64,000 nucleotides of DNA, taken from NCBI RefSeq assembly GCF_003316765.1, contig NZ_NIJF01000060.1, positions 186,001 to 250,000 of the forward strand, in the 5' to 3' direction. This stretch comes from Bacillus sp. P14.5 (GTDB lineage Bacteria; Bacillota; Bacilli; Bacillales; Bacillaceae_B). The notes beneath the pieces were generated by a model. It worked only from the letters and a program-made list of their open reading frames with translations, was not told the origin of the DNA and made no database searches. Shown one piece after another: positions 3,236-57,335 of this stretch. Both the position numbers and the translations under genes were made by a program. Every line of letters starts with the position of its first letter. Position 1 is the first letter of the stretch.

Positions 3236-3605
3236 TAGGTTCGTTAATTTGGCGACTTGCACCGGATAACAGGCTGTATTCAATTTTCGGGCCGTTGAAA
3301 AGAGATCTACACAAGATAATGGTCCGTATTTTGACTTTGCGGGCCGTTGAAAAAGAGGTCTACACGAGATAATGGTCCGTATCTTGACTTTGCGGGCCGT
3401 TGAAAAAGAGATCTACACAAGATATTGGCCCGTATCTTCACTTTGCGGGCCATCGAAAAAGCAATTTGCCCGAGATAATGGCCTGCAGCTGTACTTTACA
3501 GGCCGGTGAAAAAGCAATTTGCCTTGGATAACGGCCCGTATTCACATTTTGCAGGCCGGTGTGATCACCATTCTCCTAGATAACGACAGTTGAGTCAGAA
3601 TCACA
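3236..3605. repeat. 53-bp tandem hairpin array (about 6-7 units)
   Basis: Units start at about 3289, 3341, 3394, 3447, 3500 and 3553, with a decayed unit before them. Each unit carries GGGCCGTT early and AATGGTCC or ATTGGCCC about 30 bases later, which pair as a stem. The stem varies between units but stays paired: GGCCAT/ATGGCC at 3448, GGCCG/CGGCC at 3501, and G-T wobble in the first two. No unique spacers are present, so it is not a CRISPR array. It lies downstream of the gene ending at 3005 and of the minus-strand gene ending at 3610. Confidence 0.85.
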
Positions 3606-3609
3606 CAGC

Positions 3610-4094
3610 TCATCCCTTAGGCAGAATCTCTTTCACCCACATATCAATATCTTCTTTGGTCATTTCTCCTTGATAGATTCTTTTCACTTTTCCTTCAGGC
3701 GTAACAAAAAAAGAAGCGGGAAGATTTTTGGTGCCGTAAGCATCATATACCTCTCCTTCCTTGCCCATTACAACCGGAAGGGAAAGATGGTTGCTCTCCA
3801 AGAATTTATTTACAACATATTCCGACTCTCGAATATGATTGGTAACGAACTCAAAACCTTGATCCTTATATTGAGTAAATGCCTCCTGGATTGCAGGCAT
3901 TTCCTTTTTGCAGGGGCTGCACCAGCTTCCCCAGAAGTTTATAAGCAGAGCCTTTCCTTCACTAGGAAGGTGAAATCAGGAACTTGGTCATCAACCTGAA
4001 CTTTTCGGAATTCTTCTTTGTTGTATAGATTCACATACAAAGTGTAAGGTACAGCACTTAATAAAACCGAGAGTATAATAGTTCTCATCAGCAT
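3610..4094 (-). pseudogene. TlpA/ResA-type thiol-disulfide oxidoreductase, frameshifted
   Basis: An N-terminal anchor (MRTIILSVLLSAVPYTLYV, from ATG 4094 or 4088) is followed by DDQVPDFTF. After a one-base loss near 3968 the frame resumes with PSEGKALLINFWGSW-CSPC, the thioredoxin active site (WCSPC), then KNLPASFFVTPEGK with the cis-proline loop. TlpA/ResA proteins reduce disulfides in extracytoplasmic proteins and are usually recharged by CcdA. The gene begins 8 bases after the stop of the membrane-protein gene at 4102, so the two are probably one operon. Restored length would be about 161 residues, normal for the family. Confidence 0.75.
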
Positions 4095-4101
4095 CCGCAA
4101 A

Positions 4102-4410
4102 TTACTTTCCGGGCAGAACGCCGTTGGTTATCTTTTTCAGGGCCCTATTTAAAATAGAGATACATACAAACATCGTTGTTATGATAACAGCGAAGAAAAT
4201 GATGAATCTTATAAAGCTATTTTGAACAAAACTGGCAATCCAATTACCGAAAAAATAGATACAGACAAAGGCTGCTATGGTTGCTGCTATATAAGATACA
4301 GCTACACAGAATATCTGAGTCTTAGTAAACGTCTTTAGGAGATCTCTATTTTTATTTATTTTATATATAATGGCAACAGCAAAAGCAGCTGCAACAATCC
4401 AATCAATCAT
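4102..4410 (-). CDS. Hypothetical four-helix membrane protein
   Basis: 102 residues with hydrophobic segments at about 4-17, 32-54, 55-66 and 68-88, separated by short charged loops. GGGAGG lies 10 bases upstream of the ATG. It is the first gene of a likely two-gene operon with the TlpA-like gene downstream, so a supporting role in redox or membrane quality control is possible, but this is only context. No family recognised. Confidence 0.65.
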   Translation of the reverse strand: MIDWIVAAAFAVAIIYKINKNRDLLKTFTKTQIFCVAVSYIAATIAAFVCIYFFGNWIASFVQNSFIRFIIFFAVIITTMFVCISILNRALKKITNGVLPGK

Positions 4411-4574
4411 GGTGAACCAACCTCCCTCGCTTTACTTTAGCATAATTTACCTTTTTTACTGTAAAAAATTAGTGTCATGGAATAATACTTACCTTACCCG
4501 TTTCTTAATAAAAAGAAGGACTCAGCCTCCAATTGGCGAATTTATTCTACTATAATACTAAAAAGGGTGATTGC

Positions 4575-5164
4575 ATGAACATACTATGGGACTTCGATGG
4601 AACATTATTTGATACCTACCCTGCTTATACAAAAGTGCTTCATACAGTACTTGGGGATGAATATGATAAGAATGAAATTTATAAAAAGCTGAAGGTTTCC
4701 TATTCGCATGCTATGGAACACTATCAGGTATCTAATGAAAAACAGGATGAAATGACAGCATTAAGGATAGACCTCCATCCAAGCGAAATGAAGCCCTTTG
4801 ATCATGTGGAGGAAATACTAAAATATGCTGACAAAAACGTCATCATGACTCACAAAGACAGAGCTGGTGTTTCAGCTATCTTGAAGCATTATGGCTGGGA
4901 GAACTATTTCGAGGATATTGTAACAATTGATGATGGATTTGCCCGAAACCGCATCCTGAATCCTATATTTACTTGCATGAGAAGCATAGAATCGACTTGG
5001 CCATTGGAGACCGCGAATTAGATTTACTGCCGGCGAAGGAACTGGGAATCCCGACCTGCCTTTTCCAAGCACACAGCGATATAGCAGACTTTCATCTAGA
5101 GGATTATTCGGAGTTTTTTACCTTGGATTTAGACTCTGTTAAAAGAATGAACCAGAAGGATTGA
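4575..5164 (+). pseudogene. HAD-superfamily hydrolase (phosphoglycolate phosphatase-like), frameshifted
   Basis: Begins MNILWDFDGTLFDTYPAYTK with HAD motif I (DFDGT). Motif II is in NVIMTHK, and motif III/IV reads DLAIGDRELDLLPAKELG in another frame. One A added to the AAA at 4946-4948 joins them through DGFARKPHPESYIYLHEK, as in intact family members. The product would be a cytoplasmic phosphatase with a helical cap, about 197 residues. The ATG at 4575 is chosen because AAAAGGGTGA lies just upstream; an earlier ATG at 4533 lacks a site. A terminator follows at 5178. Confidence 0.75.
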
Positions 5165-5177
5165 AGATAAGCCCATT

Positions 5178-5204
5178 AGAGTGCTTAATTACTTTAAGCA
5201 CTCT
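5178..5204 (+). terminator. Rho-independent terminator after the HAD gene
   Basis: Perfect 11-bp inverted repeat AGAGTGCTTAA / TTAAGCACTCT with a 5-base loop, 13 bases after the stop codon. The T-tract is interrupted. Confidence 0.7.
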
Positions 5205-5229
5205 TCCTTCTGTGCAAAATCTAAATGTA

Positions 5230-5406
5230 TTACCGCCTTGCTTTTCTATCAGTGACCATTTCAAAGCCCCTGAACAAAAATAGCAGCACACCAAGAATCA
5301 TGAAAATTAATGAAGAAAAAAATTCTGAATCAATAAATAAGTGATAAAGGGCCGCACCAAGAAACAGCAGTCCAACCAAATCCATTATCAGCCGCAGGAT
5401 TTTCAT
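5230..5406 (-). CDS. Small two-helix membrane protein, 58 residues
   Basis: An ATG at 5406 preceded by AAGGAGGGG opens a 58-residue frame, MKILRLIMDLVGLL onward, with two hydrophobic helices (about 5-24 and 31-46) and a basic tail ending TDRKARR. The strong ribosome binding site and clean composition make it a likely real gene. I do not recognise the family. Confidence 0.65.
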   Translation of the reverse strand: MKILRLIMDLVGLLFLGAALYHLFIDSEFFSSLIFMILGVLLFLFRGFEMVTDRKARR

Positions 5407-5595
5407 CCGCTTCCCCTCCTTGTATTTAACTCTAACAGAAACGAGCTGCTATTCTATTGCGATATGTACATTAAAAATGAATTTTATCAATACTTCTATT
5501 CATTAACCTATATAGCTTTTTAGTGATTAAGCATTAAGCATTAACCATTCACTCCCATTTTCTCATAACAATATTATTTATACAGGAGGAAGAAC

Positions 5596-6345
5596 ATGAC
5601 TTCAATGAACCTGGGTCCCCCAATAGCCAAGGGAAACACTGCAGATATATACCTTCACGAGAATAAGATAATTAAAATCTTTAAAGATCATCTTCCAGAT
5701 ACAGAATCGGCAAAGGAGGCCAGTAAGCAGAGTTTGGCCCATGCGGCTTGTCTTCCTGTCCCTGCAGTGCTTGAAGTTACTTCGGTGAACAACAAACAAG
5801 CAATCATCATGGAATTCGTTAAAGGAAGAACATTAGGCGATTTATTCTTTGAAGATAAAAGCCTGGCTGAAAAGTATCTCAGGATGTCGATTGATATCCA
5901 GCAGCAGATACATAGCATCATACCGAAATCTCTTGAATCCATGAATGATAAATTGCGCAGGCAAATAGAGTCTGCTTCTCAATTGGATGGAAGACAGAAG
6001 TCCGGTTTACTGCAAAAGTTAGAATCCATTAATTATGTAAGCAGGCTCTGCCACGGGGACTTTCACTTATTTAACTTGATTAAATCAGATGAAAAAATCC
6101 ATATTATTGACTGGGTCGATTCAAGTGCCGGCGATATCCGCGCAGATGTATGCAGAACTTATCTGCTATACTCTCAATTTTACCCGGATTTGGCAGAACA
6201 GTATGTAGACCTTTACTGTCAGAAGAGTGGTTTACTAAGGTCTGAGATCTTTGAGTGGCTGCCTATTATTGCTGCTGCGAGGTTAGCTGAGAGAGTTGAA
6301 ACCGAGAATCAGGAAAGGCTTTTGAAGATTGTTCTTGCGCAATAA
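5596..6345 (+). CDS. Aminoglycoside phosphotransferase (APH) family kinase
   Basis: 249 residues with a kinase-like fold of the APH/choline kinase group: N-terminal nucleotide loop (GNTADIYLHENKIIKIFK), hinge IIMEFVKGRTLG, catalytic loop LCHGDFHLFNLI at about 151-162 and the metal-binding IIDWVDSSAGD. It would transfer phosphate from ATP to a small alcohol or aminosugar; the substrate cannot be told, and most such orphan genes are not proven resistance genes. AGGAGGAAG lies 6 bases before the ATG. It is a single gene with its own terminator at 6347. Confidence 0.85.
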   Translation: MTSMNLGPPIAKGNTADIYLHENKIIKIFKDHLPDTESAKEASKQSLAHAACLPVPAVLEVTSVNNKQAIIMEFVKGRTLGDLFFEDKSLAEKYLRMSIDIQQQIHSIIPKSLESMNDKLRRQIESASQLDGRQKSGLLQKLESINYVSRLCHGDFHLFNLIKSDEKIHIIDWVDSSAGDIRADVCRTYLLYSQFYPDLAEQYVDLYCQKSGLLRSEIFEWLPIIAAARLAERVETENQERLLKIVLAQ

Positions 6346-7148
6346 TAAAACAGAGGGGTCAACCTCTGTTTTATACTGAAATAATTTTTATTTTTACCTG
6401 GAATTGCACAGCCTTCAGGACCGCAGATCAATTCACCCTTTAATTGGGCTTCTTCAGCTTTTTCTATTTCTAATTGTTTCTTCTGCCAATCCAAATCGAT
6501 AATTGGGTTGAACTTTTCGGGATGTCTTAAATACCACCGCTGCTTACGAATCAAGTAGTTGTCCTTATCAAGTGCTAAAGCGCTATCCAATTCTGTTAGC
6601 GCCTCTTCTTTCTTTCCATTGCGAGAGTATTCCATAGCAAGCTTGAACTTGGTTTGAGAAAGTTCCTTTTCAAGTTGAGTGGGACCTTCTGAAGGATTGA
6701 AATACTGGTCATCAAGCTCAACCTTCTCCACTTCTTCAAAGATCAGCTTCCTTATTCCCTCTGTATGTTCTTCATTGGACACCTGAAATCCTTGTTTGAT
6801 CAAGCGGATTGTCCCTTCTTTATCTATAAAGATTCCATTGGGAACAATTTTAAATCCAAATTGGTTGGAGAAGCTATTATCCTCATCAACAACGGTCGTG
6901 AATGGCATTTCATCTGCAAATGGTCTAACTACTTCAGCACCTTTAATATCGACAGACACAGATAAAATATCAAAGCCAGCATATTTATATTTATGATAAA
7001 ATTTCTGCCATCCAGGCAGTTGCTCCCTGCAGCGTCACCAGGAAGCCCACATGAAAATGAGTGTATTTTTTCCGTGGTAGTCCTTTAACGAGACCATGTT
7101 CCCATCAAGTCCGCGAAGTTGGATGTCTTTTATTTTTTGCAATAGCAA
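6309..7148 (-). pseudogene. TlpA-type thioredoxin-like protein with TPR tail, interrupted by in-frame UGA at the active site
   Basis: Translation probably starts at TTG 7148 (AAAGGAGGA, 7 bases upstream). The frame reads LRGLDGNMVSLKDYHGKN, then LIFMWASW, a TGA codon at 7037-7035, then RCREQLPGWQKFY in the same frame. In TlpA relatives this spot is WCxxCREQLP, so UGA sits where the first active-site cysteine is expected, and the motif is one residue short. Downstream come FGFKIVPNGIFIDKEG (thioredoxin fold), a TPR-like helical pair (about 125-165) and a CGPEGCAIP tail. The listed end runs through the terminator; one extra A at 6391-6395 would give a stop near 6389. Options are a nonsense or deletion error, a real pseudogene, or selenocysteine. 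Confidence 0.65.
6347..6372. terminator. Bidirectional terminator between convergent genes
   Basis: AAAACAGAGG / CCTCTGTTTT, 10-bp perfect stem with a 6-base loop, A-rich on one side and T-rich on the other. It separates the APH gene from the convergent thioredoxin-like gene. Confidence 0.85.
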
Positions 7149-7368
7149 TGCAAATCCTCCTTTTAAGCAAACTGTTAGTTTAAATCCATTCTTCTTCTAT
7201 ATTAACAAGTAGAATCCTATAATGAAATTTTTTAAATCATTAGGCTTCTCTTCATACTATTTTTCGTTTAATTTCAAAGGTAGATTTGATGAAAAGATTT
7301 CTCTTCCCGTCTTGATAATCAGGCTGTAAATCAGCTGCTTCTCAAACATAATAGTCAACTATTACAAG

Positions 7369-7404
7369 AGATATATACTGTAATAAGAGTTACAGTATAT
7401 ATCT
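7369..7404. promoter_or_regulatory. 15-bp perfect inverted repeat in a divergent promoter region
   Basis: AGATATATACTGTAA, 6-base spacer, TTACAGTATATATCT. It lies 48 bases before the flavoprotein start at 7453 and about 220 bases before the divergent TlpA-like start. A TATAAT at 7418-7423 just downstream is the likely -10 for the flavoprotein, so the palindrome is well placed to be an operator. Confidence 0.55.
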
Positions 7405-7452
7405 TCTCATTACCTGTATAATATCCCTATAAGATACGGAAGGAGATACAAT

Positions 7453-8529
7453 ATGCACAAAGTAATTTTAGTTGGAGGGGGACATGCTCATCTCCATTGC
7501 TTAAAGCAAATCAGAAAAGAACCTCTCTCAAATACCCGGTTTATACTAGTATCTCCAAGTAAATATCAATACTACTCAGGGATGTTTTCTGGTTTTGCCG
7601 AAGGGATTTATCCTGAATCTGAAATTCGGGTTAATCTGGAAGAACTATGCAGGAAATCAGGAGTTGAATTCATCCAGGACTCAGCAGAGAAAATCTTAAT
7701 ATCCGAAAAGAAATTGATACTCGGAAACGGCTGCTCCTTGTCCTTCTCTCATGCCTCCTTTGATATCGGTTCAAGTACAAAGGTCAACCAGGTAAGTGGA
7801 GTAAATATTAATACAGTCAAGCCCAATTATCGCGTCCCCTCTATTATTAAGGAATTACAAAACGCTTCGTCTCCAATAATAGTAGGCGGAGGAGCTGCGG
7901 GTGTTGAACTTTGTCTTGCCTTATTACAAAGAAAGAAAAAGCTGAAAATGGATGGAACGGTAACTCTAATCAGCTCAAACCGACTGATTTCTAATGAATC
8001 TGCCAGCGCATCTAAGAGGCTTGAAAAGGAATGCAGAAAAAAAGGTGCACGATTATTTACTGGTGAACACGTAGAAGAAGTTTCCATAAAAGTCCTTAAA
8101 ACCAATAAACAAACTCTTTCGCATTCAGGAGTTTTATTTGTTACTGGACCATCTTCTTTTCCAATTTTTAAAGAAAGCGGCATTACGGCAACGAAGGAAG
8201 GATATATGACAGTATCGGATACTCTCCAGAGTACTAGCCACCCGTTTATTTTGGGTGCAGGTGATTGTGTAACATTGCTATCTCATCCACGCTTGGCTAA
8301 AAATGGTGTTTATGCTGTCCGGCAAGGTCCTGTTTTATGGGAGAATATTAAGCGGATATTATCGAATAGGCCGCGAATTGAATTTTCTCCTCAGAAGAGA
8401 TACTTGTCTATTTTATCAACAGGGGGAAAGCAAGCCATGCTATTATACGGTGATTTTTATTGGCATGGCCGGCTGCCTTGGAAAATAAAAAGCCTAATTG
8501 ATAAAAAGTTTTTAAAGCAATATTTATAG
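7453..8529 (+). CDS. FAD-dependent pyridine nucleotide-disulfide oxidoreductase, SelD-associated type
   Basis: 358 residues. The N-terminal VILVGGGHAHLHCL dinucleotide fold, VSPSKYQYYSGMFSGF, SFDIGSS and the second Rossmann motif SPIIVGGGAAGVELCL match the family known as the N-terminal partner of selenide-water dikinase (TIGR03169), which also exists stand-alone, as here. ILGAGDCV is the C-terminal FAD-binding motif. Related to NDH-2 type dehydrogenases, it probably oxidises NAD(P)H, with unknown acceptor. AAGGAGATACA precedes the ATG. Divergent from the thioredoxin-like gene with the UGA codon. No SelD domain is attached and none is in the window. Confidence 0.8.
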   Translation: MHKVILVGGGHAHLHCLKQIRKEPLSNTRFILVSPSKYQYYSGMFSGFAEGIYPESEIRVNLEELCRKSGVEFIQDSAEKILISEKKLILGNGCSLSFSHASFDIGSSTKVNQVSGVNINTVKPNYRVPSIIKELQNASSPIIVGGGAAGVELCLALLQRKKKLKMDGTVTLISSNRLISNESASASKRLEKECRKKGARLFTGEHVEEVSIKVLKTNKQTLSHSGVLFVTGPSSFPIFKESGITATKEGYMTVSDTLQSTSHPFILGAGDCVTLLSHPRLAKNGVYAVRQGPVLWENIKRILSNRPRIEFSPQKRYLSILSTGGKQAMLLYGDFYWHGRLPWKIKSLIDKKFLKQYL

Positions 8530-8546
8530 AAGGGTTAAGACTTGAT

Positions 8547-8642
8547 TGCTTCTCCAGGAAAATTCCTAGAGCCGGATTTTTCCTGGAAACGAGATTTTTC
8601 TTTTTAAACAGAGAGAGAGCTGCTCTTTTCTTTCTTGCTTAC
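8547..8642. repeat. Decayed internal copy of the 190-bp MITE
   Basis: AGAGCCGGATTTTTCC and AGCTGCTCTTTTCTTTCTTG align with the middle of the elements at 26762, 34351 and 38369. The terminal inverted repeats are not clear. Its TCCAGGAAAA / TTTTCCTGGA hairpin followed by T-rich sequence may serve as terminator for the flavoprotein gene. Confidence 0.5.
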
Positions 8643-8832
8643 GAGGGTATCTCTTGCGAACTATGACGTGCCTTAGTGCCTTTTTTCCTATAACTTGTTT
8701 GAAAGAATGAGCTTATTATGGGTTTTCTGTATATATAGCTTATCAACCTCTTATTGATAAACTTTGTCTTCTATTAAATTTTTATATAAATATAAAATGT
8801 TACTAAACCCTTATAAACCAAGCAACCTGAAG

Positions 8833-9927: not shown

Positions 9928-9949
9928 TTTCTATCTCCTTTTCAGAATC

Positions 9950-12874: not shown

Positions 12875-12912
12875 TCAATGACACCTCTTCCTTTAATAGG
12901 TCTGCTTGTTTT

Positions 12913-37326: not shown

Positions 37327-37422
37327 CGTAATAATACTGTAACGGGTTGGCTAAGAGGTAAGGACCGTGATTTAGCAAGATGCCCAATTCTTAACGGATA
37401 AAACCACCCAGTTCATTCATAA

Positions 37423-37496
37423 ATAAGGGAACCTTTTTCCGTTAATTTGGAAATTACACTGTATTCTGTACAAATAACGGAAATAGGTTCCCTTAT
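37423..37496. repeat. Long imperfect hairpin with AAGGGAACC arms
   Basis: ATAAGGGAACCTTTTTCCGT (37423 on) pairs with ACGGAAATAGGTTCCCTTAT (ending 37496), about 25-bp arms around a 23-base centre. The AAGGGAAC/GTTCCCTT wording is the same as in the 50.7-kb array. Not followed by a T-run. Confidence 0.7.
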
Positions 37497-37626
37497 GTAA
37501 AGAAAAGTGAACTATTATATCTTTTTTAAACTAAATAACAAAACCTTTTTCCTCTATTTTAGCTGATTTCATTATTATCTCTAAAATAATTAAAAACTAG
37601 CAGGTTGCATTCAATATTTAATTAAT

Positions 37627-40796: not shown

Positions 40797-41504
40797 ATGA
40801 ATGAAATTGGTATTTTATTTGCTTTGGCAGGGGGACTTCTGTCATTTTTTTCACCTTGCGTGTTCCCTCTTCTGCCTGCATACGTTACTCATTTAACAAG
40901 CGGAAAAATTGAAGGGAGTCAGCTGCAGGTAAGCCGCAGGAAACTATATAGCAGGTCAATTGGCTTTATTTTCGGGTTTAGTGTAGTTTTTATAGCATTA
41001 GGAGCATCTGCAAGTTATATTGGCCAGGTGCTTATGAATTACAGGCTGTTGATCATGCAGATAGCAGGGATTCTCATCATTATTTTCGGCCTGCAGATGG
41101 CCGGGTTGATAAACTTTAAATTTCTGATGAAAGAAAAACGATTTCATAAAGAAGAAAAGACCAAGAACATGGGAGGGTCCATCTTGCTGGGAATGGCCTT
41201 TGCCACTGGCTGGTCTCCGTGTGTCGGACTTGCTCTTTCCTCAATATTATTGCTTGCAAGTTCTTCTGATACACTTATGCAGGGAGTTTTTCTTCTCGGA
41301 GCTTATTCATTGGGTATGGCGATTCCCTTCTTCATTATCTCGGTCATCATTTCGTATTCTTTAAACACGATGAGAAAAATAAATAGATATCTATCAAAGC
41401 TGGCATTTATTAACGGAGTGGTCATGATCCTGCTTGGGTTCCTAGTTCTGAGCGGACAAATGCAAAAAATAAGCGCTTGGTTATCAGCCTACAGTTTATT
41501 TTAA
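40797..41504 (+). CDS. ccdA: CcdA-type thiol:disulfide transporter
   Basis: 235 residues with six membrane helices. The two conserved redox cysteines are in FFSPCVFPLLPAY (about residue 21) and TGWSPCVGLALS (about 141). CcdA carries electrons from cytoplasmic thioredoxin across the membrane to extracytoplasmic thioredoxin-like proteins. Here the likely client is the TlpA protein at the end of the same operon. AAAGGAGTGAG precedes the ATG. Confidence 0.9.
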   Translation: MNEIGILFALAGGLLSFFSPCVFPLLPAYVTHLTSGKIEGSQLQVSRRKLYSRSIGFIFGFSVVFIALGASASYIGQVLMNYRLLIMQIAGILIIIFGLQMAGLINFKFLMKEKRFHKEEKTKNMGGSILLGMAFATGWSPCVGLALSSILLLASSSDTLMQGVFLLGAYSLGMAIPFFIISVIISYSLNTMRKINRYLSKLAFINGVVMILLGFLVLSGQMQKISAWLSAYSLF

Positions 41505-41526
41505 TTTTAGAAAAAAGGTGATAAAT

Positions 41527-42225
41527 TTGGTAAATCCTGCACTAATCGGAAAATCGGTTATGGTCGTGGAAGACGATGAAAAAATTCGGCAGTTAGTGAA
41601 AATCTACTTAACCAAAGAAGGATATGAAGTTCTTGAGGCAAGTGATGGATGCGAGGCTAAACAAAAGATTGAAACCTATGATCCCTGCATTGTCATTCTG
41701 GATTTAATGCTTCCGGGAACGAGCGGCGAGGAAGTCTGCCGCTGGATCAGAGAGGATTTAAAAAGCTTGATGCCCATTATCATGCTGACAGCTAAAGTCG
41801 ATGAAAAAAGCCGCATCCAGGGCTTCAAACTTGGAGCGGATGACTATGTAGTAAAGCCGTTCAGTCCTGCCGAATTAATGGTAAGGATTGAGGCGGTTCT
41901 TAGGCGTACAGCCAGCAGATGCGGCAAATTGAGCTTTACCGGCTTCACAATCAAACCTGCTAAAGGAGAAGCATGGATTCATGGAGATCAGCTGGAGCTT
42001 ACTCATTTTGAATTTAAACTCCTGCATATGTTCATGAGCCATCCTGATCAGGTTTTAACCAGAGAACAGATCCTCAATTCCATTTATGAGAAAAACGAGA
42101 AGGCTGTTTCCGATAGAACCATCGATGTTCATATCAAGCATCTGCGTGAAAAGATCAAAGAACGGACACCTAAGGATTACATCCAGACAGTCAGAGGAAT
42201 GGGGTATAAGTTTGTTGCGCAATAA
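41527..42225 (+). CDS. OmpR-family response regulator
   Basis: 232 residues from TTG 41527 (AAGGTG upstream). Receiver domain with VVEDDEK, phospho-acceptor Asp in VILDLMLPG and LTAK; winged-helix DNA-binding domain with DRTIDVHIKHLREK and TVRGMGYKF. Pairs with the histidine kinase that starts inside its last codons. Its place inside a redox operon suggests that it senses thiol or envelope stress. Confidence 0.9.
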   Translation: MVNPALIGKSVMVVEDDEKIRQLVKIYLTKEGYEVLEASDGCEAKQKIETYDPCIVILDLMLPGTSGEEVCRWIREDLKSLMPIIMLTAKVDEKSRIQGFKLGADDYVVKPFSPAELMVRIEAVLRRTASRCGKLSFTGFTIKPAKGEAWIHGDQLELTHFEFKLLHMFMSHPDQVLTREQILNSIYEKNEKAVSDRTIDVHIKHLREKIKERTPKDYIQTVRGMGYKFVAQ

Positions 42226-43272
42226 GTTCAAAACAAACCTTCTAACCAGGCTGGTAGCGCTGAACAGCCTGGTCATCCTCCTGGTGATCTTGCTGGCTGG
42301 CCTGACCTTAAAGGACTACACCTGTTACATCGTCAATACAGAAAACGTGACAGGCTCCTCCCTTGTTGAAACACTAAACTGGTTTCTTCTCAAGGTCAGT
42401 ATTCTTGCGTTCGTCATTGTGGGAATCGTTCATTACATAACTGCAAAAAAATGATTGGCCCTTTGAAAGAATTGTCTGATGCAGCACGGGAAATTCAGCG
42501 GGGTAAGTCACCTGAGAAACTGAAGATATCGACTTCTGGTGAATTGAAGGAACTGGTTGAAAGCTTCAATTCAATGTCAGAGTCCCTTCGGATATCAGCA
42601 ATGAAAAGGGATGAAATGATGAAGGACATTGCCCATGAACTGCGCACGCCTCTAACCAATATGAATGGTTACCTGGAAGGTTTAAAGAATGAAGTCATAG
42701 ATGGAAGCCCCGCCCTCTTTGGATCTCTTCATGAAGAATCAAGCAGAATCACCAGGATTGTTGAGCATATCACAGATCTCAATAACTGGAATGAGATCGA
42801 ACAGTTTCACCAGGATCGTTTTCAAGCGATATCTATCAAAAAATTATTGGACGAAATTATTACCGCCTTCGACCTTAAGCTCACAAAACAGTTTACCAAT
42901 ATATCTATTGAGCTTGAGGAAGCAGAAATTTCCGGTGATAAAGATGGCCTAAAGCAAGTATTCACCAATATCCTCCAAAACATCTCTGACTACAATACTG
43001 GTGACTCTCTATCTGTATCGGCTGAGAAAGGTACTGAGCTAGTGATCATAGGCTTCACTCATAAAGGAAAGTTTATAGATCCTATAAAAAAAGATATGAT
43101 TTTCGAACGCTTCTACAGAGTGGATGAATCGAGGACGACTAAATCGGACGGAGCAGGGCTTGGATTAGCAATAGCCTCCAGCATCATCTCTGCCCATCAA
43201 GGGAGCCTAGACATAATTACAGACGGAACCACACATTCTTTTTTGATAAAAATCCCACTTATCCGGGATTAA
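42215..43272 (+). pseudogene. Sensor histidine kinase, frameshifted in an A-run
   Basis: Starts at TTG 42215, overlapping the regulator gene. Two membrane helices flank a very short outer loop (KDYTCYIVNTENVTG, with a cysteine). One A added to A7 at 42445-42451 joins HYITAKK to MIGPLKELSDAAREI, the HAMP domain. The H-box is DIAHELRTPLTN, N-box VFTNILQN, G-box GAGLGLAI. Repaired length is about 352 residues. The small sensor loop with a single Cys could itself be redox-active. Almost certainly functional in the cell. Confidence 0.85.
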
Positions 43273-43335
43273 TCCTTCTTTCTTAACCTGTTCTTAACAA
43301 TAAGAACTGATAATGAGAATGAAAGGAGAGAAATC

Positions 43336-43722
43336 ATGAAATTTATTGTTGAAGAGAACAGGATTACAAGCACTTTTCATTATGGAGAGCTCAGTATTTC
43401 TCCTGATGATTCCCAGGGTTACCGCCCATTCGAATTGTTCGTTTCATCTTTAGCAGGATGCAGCGGAATGTTACTCAGATCAATTTTAGTTAATAAAAGG
43501 CTTCCCTTCGAAAAGATAGAAACGGTTATTTCGGCTGAGAGGAATCCGTCACTTGCTAATAAAATTGAGCAGCTTAGCATTACCGCACATGTAATGACAG
43601 CAGCTCCGTATTCGACAAATGAAGAAGAAAAGATTGCACAGCTGGTGATAAAAAACTGCGGCATGATTCAGTCGGTGATACATAGCATCGATCTAACCTT
43701 CAAGGTGATTTCTTCTAAATAA
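43336..43722 (+). CDS. OsmC-family protein
   Basis: 128 residues. FELFVSSLAGCSGMLLRS and VIKNCGMIQSVIHS carry the two conserved cysteines. OsmC proteins reduce peroxides or react with sulfur species. GAAAGGAGAG lies upstream. Inside the ccdA...tlpA operon; a second OsmC-type gene is at 15325. Confidence 0.85.
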   Translation: MKFIVEENRITSTFHYGELSISPDDSQGYRPFELFVSSLAGCSGMLLRSILVNKRLPFEKIETVISAERNPSLANKIEQLSITAHVMTAAPYSTNEEEKIAQLVIKNCGMIQSVIHSIDLTFKVISSK

Positions 43723-43736
43723 GGAGTGCTGATCAG

Positions 43737-44351
43737 ATGGCCTATTTTCATATTGGCAGCCTGACCATCCCTTCCACTTGGCTTGCTGCTATACTTGCGC
43801 TTATCGCAGCAGCCTTGTTATACCGGCTGAAAAACGGGATGAAAACGGGAGATTGGTACTGGAACAGTTTTTTCCTGTACGTTGTAGCCTGGAAGCTGAG
43901 CTATATTTTTCTCCACCCTGCTCTCTTTCTCGACATGCCCTTGTCCGTCCTTTACTTCAATGGCGGAAAAGCAGGGCATATTGCAGGATTGGCTGCCATA
44001 TCCGTTTTTCTGTTCATGAAACGAAGGGTAGTTCAGGGTGGACCCGGCTTGCTTCTCCCCCTCTTCTTCCTTAGTTATGAGGTCATAGTGAATGGGTTGG
44101 AGAGGAACTATATTGAACTTATATTTCACTTCTTCCTGCTAGCTCTGTTTCTTTCTCTCTTTAGAAAAATAGGCGGGCAGCCGGGAGGAATGTCTATTCG
44201 AATTATATTATTCCTTGTGCTTTGCGAATTGCTGATTTTAAGTGTGTTTAAAACTCTGCTCACATTAGAAACGCTTACGTTGATCTGGTTGGCACTTCTC
44301 GCTCTAGTAGATTTAATAAAGAGTAAGGATTCTCAGTATGATATTCGATAG
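43737..44351 (+). CDS. Polytopic membrane protein of a redox operon
   Basis: 204 residues with seven or so hydrophobic segments. SVLYFNGGKAGHIAGLAA recalls the lipid-binding loop of prolipoprotein diacylglyceryl transferase, but the catalytic residues of Lgt are not evident, so this is only a resemblance. AAGGAGTGC precedes the ATG, 14 bases after the osmC stop. A role in handling disulfides or lipoproteins with TlpA is inferred from position. Confidence 0.65.
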   Translation: MAYFHIGSLTIPSTWLAAILALIAAALLYRLKNGMKTGDWYWNSFFLYVVAWKLSYIFLHPALFLDMPLSVLYFNGGKAGHIAGLAAISVFLFMKRRVVQGGPGLLLPLFFLSYEVIVNGLERNYIELIFHFFLLALFLSLFRKIGGQPGGMSIRIILFLVLCELLILSVFKTLLTLETLTLIWLALLALVDLIKSKDSQYDIR

Positions 44352-44406
44352 TAATTGCGTTGTGAATTCTTCAGTCCGGCACTAAAATTAAAGGAGGCCA
44401 TACCCA

Positions 44407-45003
44407 TTGATACAAAAGACCATTTCCTTTGGAATTATAATCGTGGCGGCAGCTATTGTAATTGTAAACGTATGGAATACTTATTTTGACAAACCAGTAA
44501 GTGAATCACCCGAAACTGTTACGACTGCAGAGAAGCTTGAAGAAGATAAAAGCATACCCGGTGCGGACCTCTCGGAAGTAAAGGAAGGAGAATTGGCCCC
44601 CGATTTTACTCTCGCAACAATTGATGGCAAATCGGTTTCGTTGTCTGACTACAAAGGCCAAAAAGTCATTTTGAACTTCTGGGCTACCTGGTGTCCCCCC
44701 TGCAAAGCTGAAATGCCACATATGCAGAAATTTTATGAAGAAAATAAGGATAACGGAATTGAAATTGTAGCTGTCAATTTAACGAATATGGATGAAGGAA
44801 AACCCGCTATTGAAGAGTTCGTGCAAGATTACGAGCTTACCTTCCCCGTCCCACTTGATGAAGAAGGTGACATCGGTATGCAGTATCAAGCTTTCACCAT
44901 CCCGACAAGCTATGTCATCGATACCGAAGGCAAGATCGCTAAGAAAATTATAGGACCTATGGATGAAAATATGATGAAGAGTTTGATTGACGCAGTAAAT
45001 TAG
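44407..45003 (+). CDS. TlpA/ResA-type membrane-anchored thioredoxin
   Basis: 198 residues; TTG start with AAAGGAGG 10 bases upstream. N-terminal anchor (about 5-25), acidic linker, then redoxin domain: APDFTLATIDGKSVSLSDYKG, active site NFWATWCPPCKAEMP (about 97-111), AFTIPTSYVIDTEGK with the cis-proline. It reduces extracytoplasmic disulfides and should receive electrons from the CcdA encoded in the same operon. Confidence 0.9.
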   Translation: MIQKTISFGIIIVAAAIVIVNVWNTYFDKPVSESPETVTTAEKLEEDKSIPGADLSEVKEGELAPDFTLATIDGKSVSLSDYKGQKVILNFWATWCPPCKAEMPHMQKFYEENKDNGIEIVAVNLTNMDEGKPAIEEFVQDYELTFPVPLDEEGDIGMQYQAFTIPTSYVIDTEGKIAKKIIGPMDENMMKSLIDAVN

Positions 45004-45071: not shown

Positions 45072-45535
45072 GACACTTCGGCTGGATATTTGAGCTGAAG
45101 TGTTCTTTAGAAGCTTTCTATGCGACACTTCGGCCGATTTTACATGTTGAAGTGTTCTTTAGAAGCTTCTCTATTTGACACTTCGACCGATTTTACATGT
45201 TGAAGTGTTCTTTAGAAGCTTTCTATGCGACACTTCGGCCGATTTTTCATGTTGAAGTGTTCTTTAGAAGCTTTCTATGCGACACTTCGGCCGATTTTTC
45301 ATGTTGAAGTGTTCTTTAGAAGCTTTCTATTTGACACTTCGGCCGATTTTACATGTTGAAGTGTTCTTTAGAAGCTCTCTATTTGACACTTCGACCGATT
45401 TTTCATGTTGAAGTGTTCTTTAGAAGCTCTCTATTTGACACTTCGGCCGATTTTTCATGTTGAAGTGTTCTTTAAAAGCTCTCTATTTGGACACTTCGAC
45501 CGATTTTACATGTTGAAGTGTTCTTTACAGGAGCT
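45072..45535. repeat. 52-bp tandem hairpin array, nine units
   Basis: Unit starts: 45072, 45124, 45177, 45229, 45281, 45333, 45385, 45437, 45490. Each has GACACTTCGGCCGATTTT, ACATGTTGAAGTGTTC and a linker such as TTTAGAAGCTTTCTAT. ACACTTC pairs with GAAGTGT in every unit. Variation is mostly in the loop (CGGCC or CGACC; TTTTAC or TTTTTC). The array begins about 70 bases after the tlpA stop. Confidence 0.9.
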
Positions 45536-46019: not shown

Positions 46020-46025
46020 TAACAA

Positions 46026-50703: not shown

Positions 50704-50720
50704 AGCAATGCAAGACGCAA

Positions 50721-50908
50721 ATAAGGGAACTTTCTTCCCTTAAATGCAATTTCAATCTAGATTCTTAATAAATAAGGGAATATTTTTCCCTTAACCCAAT
50801 AAAAATCATCTTATTTACCGTTTTTTAAGTGAATAGGGGAAAAAAGTTCCCTTATTTCAGCTGTTTTTCATAATTTTGACGAAATAAGGGAACTTTCTTC
50901 CCTTATTT
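50721..50908. repeat. Hairpin array of AAGGGAAC type, four units
   Basis: Units at about 50721, 50772, 50833 and 50884 (51, 61, 51 bases apart). Each is a palindrome such as ATAAGGGAACTTTCTTCCCTTA; the third is inverted in wording (AGGGGAAAAAAGTTCCCTTATT). Linkers are AT-rich and little conserved. The array abuts the aminotransferase scrap. Confidence 0.8.
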
Positions 50909-51051
50909 TCAAACTTTCTTATTTCGCAGCTCTTCTTAATTCTTCCAGGAACATAACAATGTTTGGGCTGAGAGAGGCACTTTTCAATCCCCAAAAAAAG
51001 ACTTAGAGATTCTTGCCTCCCTAAACCTTTTTGAGTGTGATTGCTCCCCTG

Positions 51052-51897: not shown

Positions 51898-52139
51898 TTG
51901 GCATCCTCCTTTAAAATAAGGGACGGGAAAACCCACCCCTTACATTAATGATTTAGCTAATTGTTGTTGATTTTCCTCTGTTGCTTCTTTATTGGAAGTC
52001 CACAGTGCAATTTCTTTTAGGATGTCCCTGCACAACGTGATATTCGTTCATCTATTAACAATCTGGCTTTTCCTTGGAATAGTGAAATCTTTTAGGCTAG
52101 ACAAAAAAACTATTCTGCCTGCTTGTTGAATGACTTAAA
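51898..52139. other. Intergenic with a possible coding scrap
   Basis: On the minus strand 51945-52035 reads ITLCRDILKEIALWTSNKEA and on to a stop, helix-like wording with no start codon. It may be the tail of a lost gene. Confidence 0.25.
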
Positions 52140-53147
52140 CTATTTAATCGTTTCTTGAACTCTAGAATATAATTCCCACTCCATCATCGTCTTGTTCAGG
52201 AGTTCTTTAATATCACTTAGACGAACCTCTCCACAAACACCTTTATTTTCCAGATCTAATAATGCTATGGTGTCTAATAATTTGGCTTTTTGCAGCCATT
52301 TTTGGGGTAAGACTCCTCCATTATTATGATAGCTTATTATGAAGGGTTTTATAAACGAAGATTCTTGTAAATTTTCATACCGAAGCATATTTCCTATATC
52401 AATCAACGGCGAATTACTGAACGAAAACTCCCAGTCCAGAATCCCGGTTATATTCACGCTGTTTCCTTCTGTTAGAATAAGTATATTCAGAGGATTAAAA
52501 TCGCTATGTACCAAAGAAGATTGATTTCCTATATCATCCAATAGATGAGCTTTGTCGGTGGTAAACTTCAATATGTTACGAGTTAACTCTGGCCCTAAAT
52601 TATCTGTCACCGGCCCTCCGTTGATCATTTCATCGATAAGATCCTTGAACGCCTCGGAGCCAGATAACTCAAACTTTTGGATGTTGAGCTGCTTATCGAA
52701 GAAACCTGGTGAGCTGAATTGGATGGAATGCATCCTGGCTAAATATTTACCTGCTTCATGTCCGGCATTTGATAGTGCTGCCTCCTCTCCAGTTAAAAAC
52801 AATTGTGATAGCTGAAAACCCTCCACCCAACTCAATAGTAAAAATGGATAGTCGATATGAGAAAGCGAAAAATCATGGTAAAGGACTTGGGGTACTGGCA
52901 AAATGTTTTCAACTAGTTCCAATACCTTCATTTCAATTTGCGCTTTTGATCCGGGATCATTGTATATACGCAGAACAACCGTCACTTTATTTTCGAGGAT
53001 GATCTTTAAATTAGAATTACTGAGCCCGCCGCTAAGTATCTCTATCTTTTCGATTTTTCTACCATTTAGAAAATCCTGCAGCATACTAGTTATTGTTTGA
53101 TCTTCCGGAATAATTAGCGGTTTGCTTCTCTCCCAGCCTGTCTTCAA
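52140..53147 (-). CDS. Aminoglycoside phosphotransferase (APH) family protein
   Basis: About 335 residues from TTG 53147 (GGGAG 8 bases upstream). LSGGLSNSNLKIIL nucleotide loop, FLLLSWVEGFQLSQL hinge, catalytic SSLVHSDFNPLNILIL and metal-binding ITGILDWEFSFSN. A small-molecule kinase of unknown substrate, distinct from the one at 5596. Confidence 0.85.
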   Translation of the reverse strand: MKTGWERSKPLIIPEDQTITSMLQDFLNGRKIEKIEILSGGLSNSNLKIILENKVTVVLRIYNDPGSKAQIEMKVLELVENILPVPQVLYHDFSLSHIDYPFLLLSWVEGFQLSQLFLTGEEAALSNAGHEAGKYLARMHSIQFSSPGFFDKQLNIQKFELSGSEAFKDLIDEMINGGPVTDNLGPELTRNILKFTTDKAHLLDDIGNQSSLVHSDFNPLNILILTEGNSVNITGILDWEFSFSNSPLIDIGNMLRYENLQESSFIKPFIISYHNNGGVLPQKWLQKAKLLDTIALLDLENKGVCGEVRLSDIKELLNKTMMEWELYSRVQETIK

Positions 53148-53254
53148 TAGGATCACTCCCTACTCAATAGTTATATCATATTCATGGCCTTTATAGCTTT
53201 AAAGCTTCAACAATGGAAGCGATCAACAGTAGTGGCATTTCTCCCTCGCTGCCG

Positions 53255-53400
53255 TCAATCAGAGAACCGCGCTTTCAAATCCACCTTGCCGCTGCCCCGC
53301 CTATAACTGACAACGGCAAAAATAAGGACGACAATCAGAACCCCTATCAGGAACCAGCCTGATATATATTCCCTCCGTATACCGCTTCATCACCTCAACA
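53255..53400 (-). pseudogene. Possible small single-helix membrane protein with a lost base
   Basis: From ATG 53400, MKRYTEG; adding one G to the GGG run gives EYISGWFLIGVLIVVLIFAV and a basic tail to a TGA at 53255, about 48 residues. Without the added base the frame is uninformative. Only tentative. Confidence 0.35.
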
Positions 53401-53422
53401 TCTTCGCTCCTATGAGAGAGTT

Positions 53423-53845
53423 TCATCCGAATACGATTTCATAAATAAGATAAAACCGGTACATTGCGCCCGCAAACATAAGGGTTAGCACCGTAATGAA
53501 TATGTATCTGAATTTGTAGACCCAGTAGTACTTATACTCCTCTGGATTACCCCACTTCTTCATATCACTTCTCAAGTGATAGAACAGAATGAATAATGCC
53601 GGAGAAACTACAAAGATAATGATGAACAGAAATAGGGTTTGATTAAAATAATTCATCTCCTCGCTCGAAAGAATCGACCTTAATACCTCTCCTATTGATA
53701 CCAGAAACAACACGAACAACATGATATTGGAAGTGAATATATCCGCCAGTTTCTTCCCGCTTTTCATATCTCTCAGGATAAAAAAAGGAATAAGAATTAA
53801 TAAGAGAAATGCACCTAAAAGAAAATAAATCGTATCACCTGTCAT
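53423..53845 (-). CDS. Hypothetical membrane protein
   Basis: 140 residues from ATG 53845 (GGGGGGAG 4 bases upstream). Four hydrophobic segments (about 6-24, 38-57, 68-92, 112-138) with cytoplasmic-type loops MKSGKKL and RSDMKKWGNPEEYK. No family recognised. Confidence 0.6.
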   Translation of the reverse strand: MTGDTIYFLLGAFLLLILIPFFILRDMKSGKKLADIFTSNIMLFVLFLVSIGEVLRSILSSEEMNYFNQTLFLFIIIFVVSPALFILFYHLRSDMKKWGNPEEYKYYWVYKFRYIFITVLTLMFAGAMYRFYLIYEIVFG

Positions 53846-53934
53846 GAAACTCCCCCCTTTCCTTTCATACGAAAACAAATACTAAAGGTTTCAGTTTCAT
53901 TTCTGTACAAATCAGACTGAAGGTAAATCCATCA

Positions 53935-55164
53935 TCAAAATCCCTTAGCAACGACAGGCTTTCGATCGGTTTGAAAAAGACAATTTATCACGCTGCTATA
54001 ACGTTCATCGGAGATTTCCATCAGTCCCCATCTTAAAAAGAAATGTGCATTTTTCACTCCCATAACCCATGAAGAGAACTCGGCAATGTCCATTTTAATT
54101 TCAACTTCATATGATCCTTTTTCTTCTATCTTTACAATTTTTCCATTTTCAAAAGCTACTATAAATGGCAAGGAATTCGATGGATAGAAACTATCAAAAA
54201 TGGAAAATTTAACTGCTAGTGTAACGCCGGGATTGAACTGATGACTCTTCTCTTGAAGGTCTTTAAAGAAGTTAATACAATTGACAATTCTGTACATGAC
54301 CCCGATTCCTGCATTTGCAGTGTGTTTGTTGTCAGTAGCGGAAGGGAAATCCACCATGGTCGTTTGCCCGCTTTCAGGAGAGTTAACAAAATGCAAAAGT
54401 TCATCCGAATTAGAGTTCATTACCACACGATTGATTTGGTCAGATTGTCTGTGCAGAAACGTTGAAATTTCCCTTAGCACCTGTGGCGACTCAAAGAAAA
54501 GTTCGTGAATATACAAATCTTTTTCTTCTATGCTGTACACAAAATACCCTTTCACTTCTCCTTCGTCGACAAAACCGATTACCTTCCCAAACGAAAATGG
54601 CCGATTCAATTCCCTTTCAAAAGGAAACCTTTTCGTCATTCCGTGAGTTCTCGAATAGACCCTGTTGTAACATTCAAGAACCCCTTCTCTATCTTTAAGA
54701 CCCAACTCTGCCAAGTGCCCCTTTTCATTATAATCAGGAAATTCTCTTGTGCTTATGTAAAATTGATAATTCTTAGTGCCGATCCCGAAACCCATTTTTT
54801 TATAAAAACTCACTTTAAAAGGATGCAACATGACAACATTGGAATTTGCCTCTTCATTCAACTGAAGGAAGTACTGAAGCAGTTGATAGGCATTTCTTTC
54901 TCTTTTATGCATCATATCAACAGCCACCATTCCTACTCCCCCAGCTTTGATCGGAGTAGAAGAATAGTTCACTTCAAAATCAAGCGTCCTCATTCCTGCA
55001 ACTAATTCATCACCTTTGAACACACCATATAAATGTTCTTTGCTTGTTTCTTCAATATGGTTCATCAGCCATTTATCAGCGTTCAATCCTTGAAATGCTG
55101 AATTGGCCAATTTACAAAACTTCTCATAATCGATCCCGGATATCTTCCTGATTTGTCTTTCCAT
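53935..55164 (-). CDS. Eis-like GNAT acetyltransferase with SCP2-type domain
   Basis: 409 residues from ATG 55164 (AGGAGG upstream). N-terminal GNAT domain with GGVGMVAVDMMHKRERNAYQ (acetyl-CoA loop) and MLHPFKVSFYKKMGFGIG; a second GNAT-like domain; C-terminal sterol-carrier-like fold with DIAEFSSWVMGV. This is the three-domain Eis architecture. Eis enzymes acetylate amines, including aminoglycosides in mycobacteria; Bacillus members are mostly unassigned. Confidence 0.85.
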   Translation of the reverse strand: MERQIRKISGIDYEKFCKLANSAFQGLNADKWLMNHIEETSKEHLYGVFKGDELVAGMRTLDFEVNYSSTPIKAGGVGMVAVDMMHKRERNAYQLLQYFLQLNEEANSNVVMLHPFKVSFYKKMGFGIGTKNYQFYISTREFPDYNEKGHLAELGLKDREGVLECYNRVYSRTHGMTKRFPFERELNRPFSFGKVIGFVDEGEVKGYFVYSIEEKDLYIHELFFESPQVLREISTFLHRQSDQINRVVMNSNSDELLHFVNSPESGQTTMVDFPSATDNKHTANAGIGVMYRIVNCINFFKDLQEKSHQFNPGVTLAVKFSIFDSFYPSNSLPFIVAFENGKIVKIEEKGSYEVEIKMDIAEFSSWVMGVKNAHFFLRWGLMEISDERYSSVINCLFQTDRKPVVAKGF

Positions 55165-55345
55165 CATATCCTCCTAACAAACTGCTTCTAAGAATCTACT
55201 TTTCAATCAAAAAATCAATATCTTCATCTAACCACATTACCATATCTTTTTGAAGATTTCTTAACAATCCAAAATAGAAGAACCAGTGTCTCTCTTTCCC
55301 ACAAAAAAGCGTCCCCAAAAAGGAGCCGCTCATAGTTTATTGAAT

Positions 55346-55747
55346 TCACCTTTTAACCGTATTATTCATCTCACTCGCAAGCTTTTTAAAATATGAATAA
55401 AAAGCAAACCAGAAAATCAAATAGACAACGATAAACCCGGCTACACCCAATACAATTGGAATGAAGTTAAACGGAAGCCAGCCAATATATAAGGCGAGCG
55501 GGAACCACAAGAAAATAGATAGGAGAAAGTGAATCGACGTTTGCTTCAACGGACTCCACTGATCCACTTCAAACAGTTTTGAGGATGCGCCGAAGTAAAT
55601 CCCCATCACCATGCTCCCCAGCATACTGAGCCAGATATCTGACACGGCGGCGTCCACATTCATCAGTTTTAGAATAGTGAGGGCTGTGAAGGTGAATATC
55701 GCGGTAAAGCCTAATCCAATCAAGCTTCTTCTCAAGAGATCAATCAT
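55346..55747 (-). CDS. DUF3021 membrane protein
   Basis: 133 residues, four membrane helices, with VDQWSPLKQTSIHFLLS as in DUF3021. Its start overlaps the LytTR regulator gene by 4 bases, the usual arrangement for this pair. Probably modulates the regulator at the membrane. Confidence 0.85.
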   Translation of the reverse strand: MIDLLRRSLIGLGFTAIFTFTALTILKLMNVDAAVSDIWLSMLGSMVMGIYFGASSKLFEVDQWSPLKQTSIHFLLSIFLWFPLALYIGWLPFNFIPIVLGVAGFIVVYLIFWFAFYSYFKKLASEMNNTVKR

Positions 55748-56199
55748 CTTGTATCAACTCCCAGTATTAATTTTTGTTTTATTTCTTGAACATATTTCCG
55801 TGAAACGTATTCTTTACTGCCCGAGTAAAAATGGACGCAGAGACTGCCATTAAACGCTAACTCGAACCGCTTGATTCTATTTAGGTTGCCAATCGCCGAT
55901 TTTGATAAGCGGCTGAAACCGCAGCTCTCCAGGAGTTCTTCTGCTTCGTATAGTTTCATATTGAGTTCAACGGATTGTTTGTGAATGGAAGCATATACTT
56001 TACGGTTTACAGCGAAGACATAATCGATTTCATCTGGTGAAAGCAGGATGGATTGTTCTCCTTCCGATCCCACAATTCGATTGGGTGTTTTTGTTTCTAA
56101 CTTTTTCACAAGCTCTTCCAGTTCTTTTGACCACTCCTTCGCATGAATCGTTATGAGGGTTTCGTCGTACTTATCATGGATTTCAATATTGACCTTCAT
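55744..56199 (-). CDS. LytTR-domain DNA-binding regulator
   Basis: 151 residues. C-terminal LytTR domain (about 55-145): EIDYVFAVNRKVYASIH, GFSRLSKSAIGNLNRIKRF and GSKEYVSRKYVQEIKQKL. No receiver domain, so not a two-component regulator. Coupled to the DUF3021 gene. Confidence 0.9.
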   Translation of the reverse strand: MKVNIEIHDKYDETLITIHAKEWSKELEELVKKLETKTPNRIVGSEGEQSILLSPDEIDYVFAVNRKVYASIHKQSVELNMKLYEAEELLESCGFSRLSKSAIGNLNRIKRFELAFNGSLCVHFYSGSKEYVSRKYVQEIKQKLILGVDTR

Positions 56200-56250
56200 T
56201 CCTTACCTCCTCTCCTTATCCTTACTATAGCAACAATCTTCAATTCAATT

Positions 56251-56398
56251 GGTTATTTCTGCATAACCTGCCTTTATTTATGTATGACCTGCATGATTCT
56301 TTGCGTAAGTTGAGCAGCTCTTATCTTTCCTGTATACCTGGAAATGTTGTTGTTTTCCTATCTCAATATTTAATAGTCGCAAGTTTATGAAAAGAGCC
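56251..56398 (+). repeat. Decayed MITE copy E
   Basis: The right part (AGCAGCTCTTATCTTTCC ... AATAGTCGCAAGTTTATGAA then AAGAGCC) aligns with the right half of copies A and B; GGTTATTTCTGCATA at 56251 may be the decayed left end. The flanks do not match, so the target duplication is lost or the ends are wrong. Confidence 0.5.
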
Positions 56399-56422
56399 CC
56401 GAATAATAATCCGAAGAAAAAA

Positions 56423-56447
56423 GTCCAGAGATTGATCTCCTCTGGAC
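56423..56447. terminator. Terminator of the dinB-like gene
   Basis: GTCCAGAG / CTCTGGAC, 8-bp stem just after the stop at 56461, A-rich on the plus side. Confidence 0.7.
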
Positions 56448-56460
56448 GAATAATCGTTTA

Positions 56461-56925
56461 TCAGCGTTGTGCCGGCCAAGACCCCTGCAATTTTCTCAGT
56501 TGAATGATCTGTCCTGTGTGATAAGCATCATGCATCATGATGTCCAACAATTTCTCTTCAAAAGCATCTTGATCAGGGTCGGAATCGGAAACTGACGAAA
56601 GTGCTCTTCGAAGGTTAAGATGGGCACTTTCAGCACGCTCCACTACTTCCACCCACTCACTGGTGTTGGAATCGGTAAGTGAAAAAGTCTCATCGCCGTC
56701 CAGGTTATTTGTCCACTCACGACCTTCCACTTCAGCAGTCAGCCTCTCTTTGTAATAAATAAGATGATTGACGTTTTCCCAGATGGTTTTGGTCGCCTCG
56801 CCAACAGGCTGCCATTCTGCCTGTTCCGCAGTCAGCCCTTCTATTGCAAACTTAAAAGGAGCATACCAGTTTTCTTTATCATAAGTTGTGTCAAGCAAGT
56901 GTAAAAGGGTATCTCTTCGCATCAT
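56461..56925 (-). CDS. DinB-family protein
   Basis: 154 residues from ATG 56925 (AGGAGGAG upstream). Four-helix bundle with metal-type histidines: WENVNHLIYYKERL and LLDIMMHDAYHTGQIIQLRK. DinB/YfiT proteins bind a divalent metal and some are thiol-dependent transferases; substrate unknown. Single gene. Confidence 0.85.
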   Translation of the reverse strand: MMRRDTLLHLLDTTYDKENWYAPFKFAIEGLTAEQAEWQPVGEATKTIWENVNHLIYYKERLTAEVEGREWTNNLDGDETFSLTDSNTSEWVEVVERAESAHLNLRRALSSVSDSDPDQDAFEEKLLDIMMHDAYHTGQIIQLRKLQGSWPAQR

Positions 56926-57088
56926 CTTGATCTCCTCCTGAATGATTAAATTCAAACAACTCTATCAATAACTAGATTCTCTATTTTGGCGAAACTTCCT
57001 GCGCCAATCTTAAAAATCAACCACAAGTGAGAACTGGTGATTTTCTTTGCGGCTTAAAGCCTCTCTTAGCGGCCACTGCCTAAAAGTC
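56926..57088. other. Intergenic lead-in to the 57.1-kb array
   Basis: No gene or hairpin recognised. Confidence 0.3.
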
Positions 57089-57335
57089 CCACTGATTAAT
57101 CTCATCAGCCAATTGCCCTCTATGATAAATATTTTAGAAATAGGAGAAGATATTCCGCTTATTACCAAAAAAGCACCAGAAGCAGCCCAAATAAGCGGAG
57201 AAATTCCGCTTATTTGCTAAAAAGATGTGAAAAGAAAATAGTTCATTTATCTCTGCTTAAGCGGAAAATTTCCGCTTATATACCCAATATCGAAGGCAAT
57301 CTCGCAGCATAGCCGGAAAAATTCCGCTTATTTTA
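57089..57335. repeat. Hairpin array of AAGCGGAA type, four units
   Basis: Units at about 57140, 57191, 57257 and 57309 (51, 66, 52 bases apart), e.g. ATAAGCGGAGAAATTCCGCT then TAT. The first 50 bases (CACTGATTAATCTCATCAGC) match the element at 30477. Confidence 0.8.

Follow-up and report, generated by a model that had tools for sequence, protein, structure and literature searches.

Palindromic repeats of the window

The stretch of DNA considered here (the window; 64,000 nucleotides of Bacillus sp. P14.5, positions 186,001 to 250,000 of the forward strand of contig NZ_NIJF01000060.1, NCBI RefSeq assembly GCF_003316765.1) contains four arrays of short palindromes, described in an earlier note on this DNA as intergenic hairpin arrays with unrelated stems and one common period. 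All four were found at about the positions given there, with a spacing of 53 bp in array 1, a period of 52 bp in array 2, palindromes spaced 51, 61 and 51 bp in array 3 and 51-52, 66 and 52 bp in array 4. Two different kinds of repeat are present: arrays 1 and 2 are rows of tandem units of 52/53 bp, hereafter class A, and each of arrays 3 and 4 is a copy of the same dispersed element, hereafter class B.

Array 1 (3245..3562, no strand assigned) has a 53 bp unit with the half-site word GGGCC; its copies are spaced exactly 53 bp, and Tandem Repeats Finder delimited it at 3284-3514 with period 53 and 4.4 copies. Its palindrome is weak, the dyad being reached by 7 of 60 column shuffles and the DNA fold giving a z of -0.5. 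Array 2 (45072..45535, likewise without strand) consists of 52 bp units with the half-sites ACACTTC / GAAGTGT and was delimited at 45072-45527 with period 52, 8.7 copies and 93% matches; its palindrome is better than 60/60 column shuffles, and two units folded as DNA gave a z of -5.5. The class B element of array 3 (50719..50911, plus strand) comprises four palindromes at about 50722-50742, 50773-50793, 50834-50854 and 50885-50905, and that of array 4 (57134..57333) lies on the minus strand. A third copy of class B at 37421..37589 (plus strand) is partial and covers model positions 1-170 of 197.

Upstream of array 2 lies a run of six genes (40797..45003, plus strand). Six tandem rows were detected in the window; a score above 250 was reached only by arrays 1 and 2 and by an 18/72-bp repeat at 63369-63688, within a long open reading frame (ORF), and the other two rows scored 64 and 59. 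A search of Rfam at the gathering score returned no match across the window. The thioredoxin-like gene adjoining array 1 (3610-4100, minus strand) is apparently split in two frames, and this neighbour is kept in G044, a genome of the same genus.

Period, anatomy and position of class A

The genome to which the window belongs (G000, Bacillaceae, 4.87 Mb; among named relatives, the best match to one window protein comes from Mesobacillus, at 60% identity) was sampled over 847 kb, and since the contigs were already known to carry relatives of array 2, array density was not extrapolated. From 55 tandem arrays with a score of at least 100, those covered by reading frames were dropped, arrays of 52/53 bp always being kept, which left 43. 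Thirty-five of these have a period of 52 or 53 (three of them lie inside a long open frame thought, but not proven, to be spurious) and 8 have other periods. The earlier note had claimed a period kept while the sequence changes, and this holds beyond the window; the wide scatter of periods for which it had proposed to look did not occur. Among 437 unit steps of 50-54 bp, from which 32 steps outside this range were excluded (short secondary anchor hits, odd and doubled steps), 267 measure 52 and 156 measure 53 bp (423/437), and the mean step of 52.35 bp corresponds to five turns of B-DNA, in agreement with the five or so helical turns originally suggested. The pattern is real and extends far beyond the window. 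This constant length is filled by about ten half-site words, as counted by eye in the own genome, such as GACACTT, GGGCC, GCATCAA, CACCAT, TACCATTA, GGATACATG and GAGGTACAT, and to this extent the claim of differing stems stands for class A.

In 400 kb of G044 and G049, both of the same genus, 14 arrays of 52/53 bp and one of double period were found, some with other words and at least six without a significant dyad; 15 further genomes of the genus (800 kb sampled) gave no array of 52/53 bp among 13 rows. G008 carries a short array of the 52/53 type at a different locus (L167), and G011 and G016 contain arrays of 20-21 or 40-41 bp. Among 18 Mesobacillus entries, 17 of which were retrieved with an array query, 16 have the stem AAATGTC/GACATTT, a paired change relative to AAGTGTC/GACACTT of the own genome. 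A single array of 52 bp units was found in Lederbergia wuyishanensis (L046). Of 41 genomes, one, the own genome, showed DNA similarity to array 2. Two assembly contigs terminate within class A arrays (L012:1-673 and L197:18893-19236), and the arrays therefore probably broke the assembly.

The best dyad of each array was compared with 60 column shuffles in 68 arrays, which are really 67, L224 and L236 being a single locus read twice. It lay above all shuffles in 45 arrays and was reached by at most three in 55. The arms, taken from the consensus, are less variable than the linkers between units in 46 of the 56 arrays having at least five units.

With genes called by a longest-ORF rule, 9 of the 50 arrays on the pieces of the own genome, G044 and G049 could not be placed relative to genes. 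Of the 41 placed arrays, 16 sit in convergent gaps; among 480 other gaps with a minimum length of 150 bp, 83 are convergent (p = 0.0016). Divergent gaps hold 4/41 compared with 96/480 (p = 0.15); array 1 was scored as codirectional despite a right neighbour resembling a broken minus-strand thioredoxin-like gene.

The order of the six-gene run before array 2 is conserved in contigs of Mesobacillus boroniphilus and M. selenatarsenatis, and in both a 52 bp array of different sequence begins directly after the last gene of the run. Part of the run is present in G034 (L153), without an array there. G044 bears an array at a locus empty in the own genome and has one array locus in common with G049; in G044 array 1 has decayed, and beside the corresponding gene no array was seen in either G049 or Mesobacillus. 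The idea that every array occupies a fixed locus was rejected, since presence varies among relatives and the run of G034 lacks one. The comparison of equivalent loci proposed in the earlier note has thus a divided outcome: presence differs at the loci compared, and the position after the six-gene run is shared between genera.

The dispersed class B element

The class B element is dispersed, about 194 bp long, and contains four palindromes of the type TAAGNGGA-n5-TCCN..TA; besides arrays 3 and 4 and the partial copy, 13 more copies were found in the sample of the own genome. Arrays 3 and 4 both match this element (nhmmer E 4.3e-34 and 4.9e-39), on opposite strands; their stems differ through paired changes (AAGGGAA/TTCCCTT versus AAGCGGA/TCCGCTT) and cannot be called unrelated, as had been supposed. 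Of 40 aligned copies, 36 have their palindrome centres separated by 51-52, 61-62 and 51-52 bp; with 10.5 bp to the turn, these distances make about 5, 5.8-5.9 and 5 turns. The single longer gap previously remarked on in each of the two arrays is present, and it is a fixed feature of the element, being 61 or 62 bp in 37/40 copies; according to the alignment, the 66 bp of array 4 are due to a middle linker longer by about 5 bases. Most copies match the model from positions 1-3 to about 190-195, which indicates a defined length with sharp ends.

At the half-site base N, G or C predominates, and the base is identical across all eight half-sites in 21 of the 40 copies, with a concordance of 0.884 compared to a maximum of 0.678 over 1000 permutations; the covariation of 0.188 likewise exceeds 500 shuffles (0.103). 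Certain mismatches are retained, G·G in palindrome 1 (30/40) and A·C in palindrome 4 (32/40), and these fit a read-out of half-sites more readily than they fit a simple hairpin.

A first query matched 24 of 101 relatives. Of 299 genomes from the order, 40 were matched by another query; these belong to 16 of 116 genera, and two of the 40 match over 27 bases only. Collections of plasmids and phages contained no match to class B at E 1e-3. No target-site duplication in excess of shuffled flanks was detected for k = 2-9 in 40 copies, and the orientation relative to codirectional genes (6 same, 6 opposite) showed no strand preference. Rfam searches of L288, L195 and L001 returned a single weak match, irrelevant and lying outside the element. 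Literature searches yielded no earlier description of class B, subscription papers and supplements lying outside the search, so that one may exist.

Several copies share in their right flanks (e.g. L245, L251, L254, L250 and L253) an extra motif like GCTTAACCTGATCTCCCAACCGATAAG beyond the 194 bp core, and the element may therefore be longer in some lineages. At L239:1025-1925 (G049 C3) there is a head-to-tail row of four class B elements, at a spacing of about 238 bp and with alternating GGGGA / GGGAA half-site subtypes. Another repeat of the same genus, of about 125-127 bp, is dispersed and partly tandem, with words like AAGCGG..CCCCGACAAGCATAAG (L126:3377-3632, L212:12635-12910, L209:12859-13151, L264:9645-10291 and L265:18135-18506). 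A stem-similar hairpin pair from a generic search (L015:5972/6074) was judged to be due to chance.

Interpretation and comparison with known systems

A stem selected as RNA tolerates G·U, and the A·C that the same site would present on the opposite strand is not tolerated. As a control, terminator-like hairpins of the sampled genomes were read in the transcribed orientation, and their single non-Watson-Crick pairs numbered 184 G·T and 75 A·C. In the stems of class A the unoriented counts were 80 G·T and 83 A·C, and those oriented by codirectional neighbours were 27:27 (P = 0.0009 under the terminator ratio). The test has limited power, and the mismatch events of related units are not independent. 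Because no bias of G·U over A·C was observed, class A is disfavoured as a set of selected RNA hairpins.

We read both classes as phased palindromic sites for putative dimeric DNA-binding proteins and not as RNA hairpins, an interpretation to which we lean with a confidence that stops a little short of even. It is suggested by the fixed period, the dyads, the conservation of the arms, the lack of a G·U excess and the enrichment at convergent gene ends in class A, together with the spacing, the half-site concordance and the kept mismatches of class B. The unit repeated in tandem in class A, about 52.4 bp or five turns long, mostly carries two half-sites in inverted orientation; the class B element is compact and dispersed, and its four palindromes, separated by about 5, 6 and 5 turns, supply eight half-sites. 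Putative sequence-specific dimers might occupy one face of the helix, neighbours touching, wrapping or bridging the DNA, the most likely role being to organise the nucleoid or to handle supercoils close to gene ends. Tandem copies would be gained and lost through slippage or unequal exchange, and the half-site words would drift together with the putative binder. The existence of such a binder, its identity and role, and a mechanism common to both classes are what we infer. For the four sites a shared mechanism had been suggested in the earlier note; they belong to two kinds of repeat, and what they have in common is that both are phased palindromes.

Several observations weigh against this interpretation. 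In 13 of the 68 arrays, array 1 included, the dyad is reached by more than three of the 60 shuffles, and within arrays 19 paired changes compare with 286 types of unpaired mismatch, so that the palindrome appears to be held at the level of the consensus and not policed in each unit. With stricter class A stems the counts become 21:16 (P = 0.046), and once each array is allowed either reading direction, 5.8% of the RNA-like simulations are equally even. The 61 bp gap of class B amounts to 5.8 turns at 10.5 bp, short of an exact six, and the element shows no significant preference for convergent gaps (5/21). Class B also occurs in G003 and G016, in samples without class A, and the two classes therefore need not share a mechanism.

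Of the mechanisms offered in the earlier note, protein phasing is favoured here and RNA processing is disfavoured by the strand symmetry, while slippage may copy units and fails to explain why their length is fixed. An RNA function, in which transcribed hairpin arrays would serve as small RNAs, sponges or protection of 3' ends, is one of the two roles proposed in the literature (PMC8161180). It gains from the RNA-seq hits given for the 52-nt repeats of B. coagulans in another report (PMC8625621), by which these are transcribed and which also speak against our interpretation, from the good fold of array 2 and from the tendency of arrays, seen in the convergent enrichment, to come after 3' ends. 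It has against it the difference of both class A counts from the terminator ratio, a fixed unit length without obvious use in RNA, and the G·G and A·C mismatches and missing strand preference of class B; on balance we regard it as quite unlikely. Unlikely, in our estimation, is that these are selfish or neutral satellites produced by slippage and transposition, whose palindromes and unit size merely reflect copying and which have no host function. The fast turnover of arrays (that of G044 at a locus empty in the own genome, and array 1 decayed or unseen in relatives) and the dispersal of class B on both strands, in tandem at L239, are what such satellites would show, and the lower number of arrays in divergent gaps could be mere promoter avoidance. 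Neutral slippage would, however, be expected to give many unit sizes and not 35 arrays out of 43 at 52/53, nor does it account for arms that vary less than linkers or for a class B element devoid of target-site duplication. Palindromes acting as supercoil sinks, by extruding cruciforms without need of a protein, would agree with the strand symmetry and with the convergent-end enrichment; many arms are short and their inner loops wide, which is poor for extrusion, class B keeps its mismatches and the fixed period is left unexplained, so that this explanation seems to us improbable.

Returning to phased protein sites, one may go further and speculate, although we hold the idea to be rather doubtful, that some Bacillales possess a chromosome-organising code read through geometry, in which putative dimers would bind palindromes five turns apart in class A and about five, six and five turns apart in class B. 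The half-site word would then be free to change provided that the sites of an array changed together with the binder, and the register would be conserved instead of the sequence, as in a satellite DNA with a fixed ruler. Why Bacillus genomes carry repeats whose length is fixed and whose sequence is free is an open puzzle, for which two ideas, small RNA and nucleoid protein, have been published, and the mismatch-symmetry test offers a choice between them from sequence only, leaning here to DNA. The four-palindrome element adds a substrate that is small and countable, in which the spacing is set and the specificity positions are concerted, and this should make a binder easy to fish for.

Among known systems, REP / BIME and BOX are dispersed intergenic palindromes, some arranged in composite elements; compared by description, class B differs in its near-fixed 52-61-52 spacing, its four palindromes and its concerted half-site changes. 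MITEs (miniature inverted-repeat transposable elements) and bcr1 of B. cereus are short dispersed non-coding elements of defined length, a property common to class B, which lacks a target-site duplication; the comparison with bcr1 is one of description and not of sequence.

The earlier note had found no named family that fits, and in this it was mistaken for arrays 1 and 2, which are ordinary members of the 52-nt tandem repeats published for Bacillus. For 176 Bacillus genomes, Subirana and Messeguer reported 1886 repeats measuring 51-53 nt, which keep their size while the sequence varies, and proposed a nucleoid protein or a small RNA, the function being unknown (PMC8161180). Arrays 1 and 2 share with them the constant unit of 51-53 nt, the species-specific sequences with several families per genome, and the short words accompanied by their reverse within one unit; their periods of 53 and 52, their 4.4 and 8.7 copies, above the lower limit of four repeats used for the search in that study, and the occurrence of several families of the same length all agree with the class. 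The table of that study includes B. selenatarsenatis and B. boroniphilus. Arrays 3 and 4 fall outside the class, no tandem row being present at either site and the linkers differing inside the 194 bp element. A 20-21 nt class from the same work, linked there to two helical turns (the phrase 'five turns' is absent), resembles class A in its constant whole-turn unit and variable sequence, and such arrays are those of G011 and G016; it differs in having two turns and not five and, by eye, direct repeats where class A has inverted pairs. While the tandem part of the pattern was thus already published, the strand test, the gene-orientation statistic and the class B element have no counterpart in the introduction, results, discussion and tables of that paper, and the strand test, the conservation of the arms, the gene-end bias and the class B element are new here.

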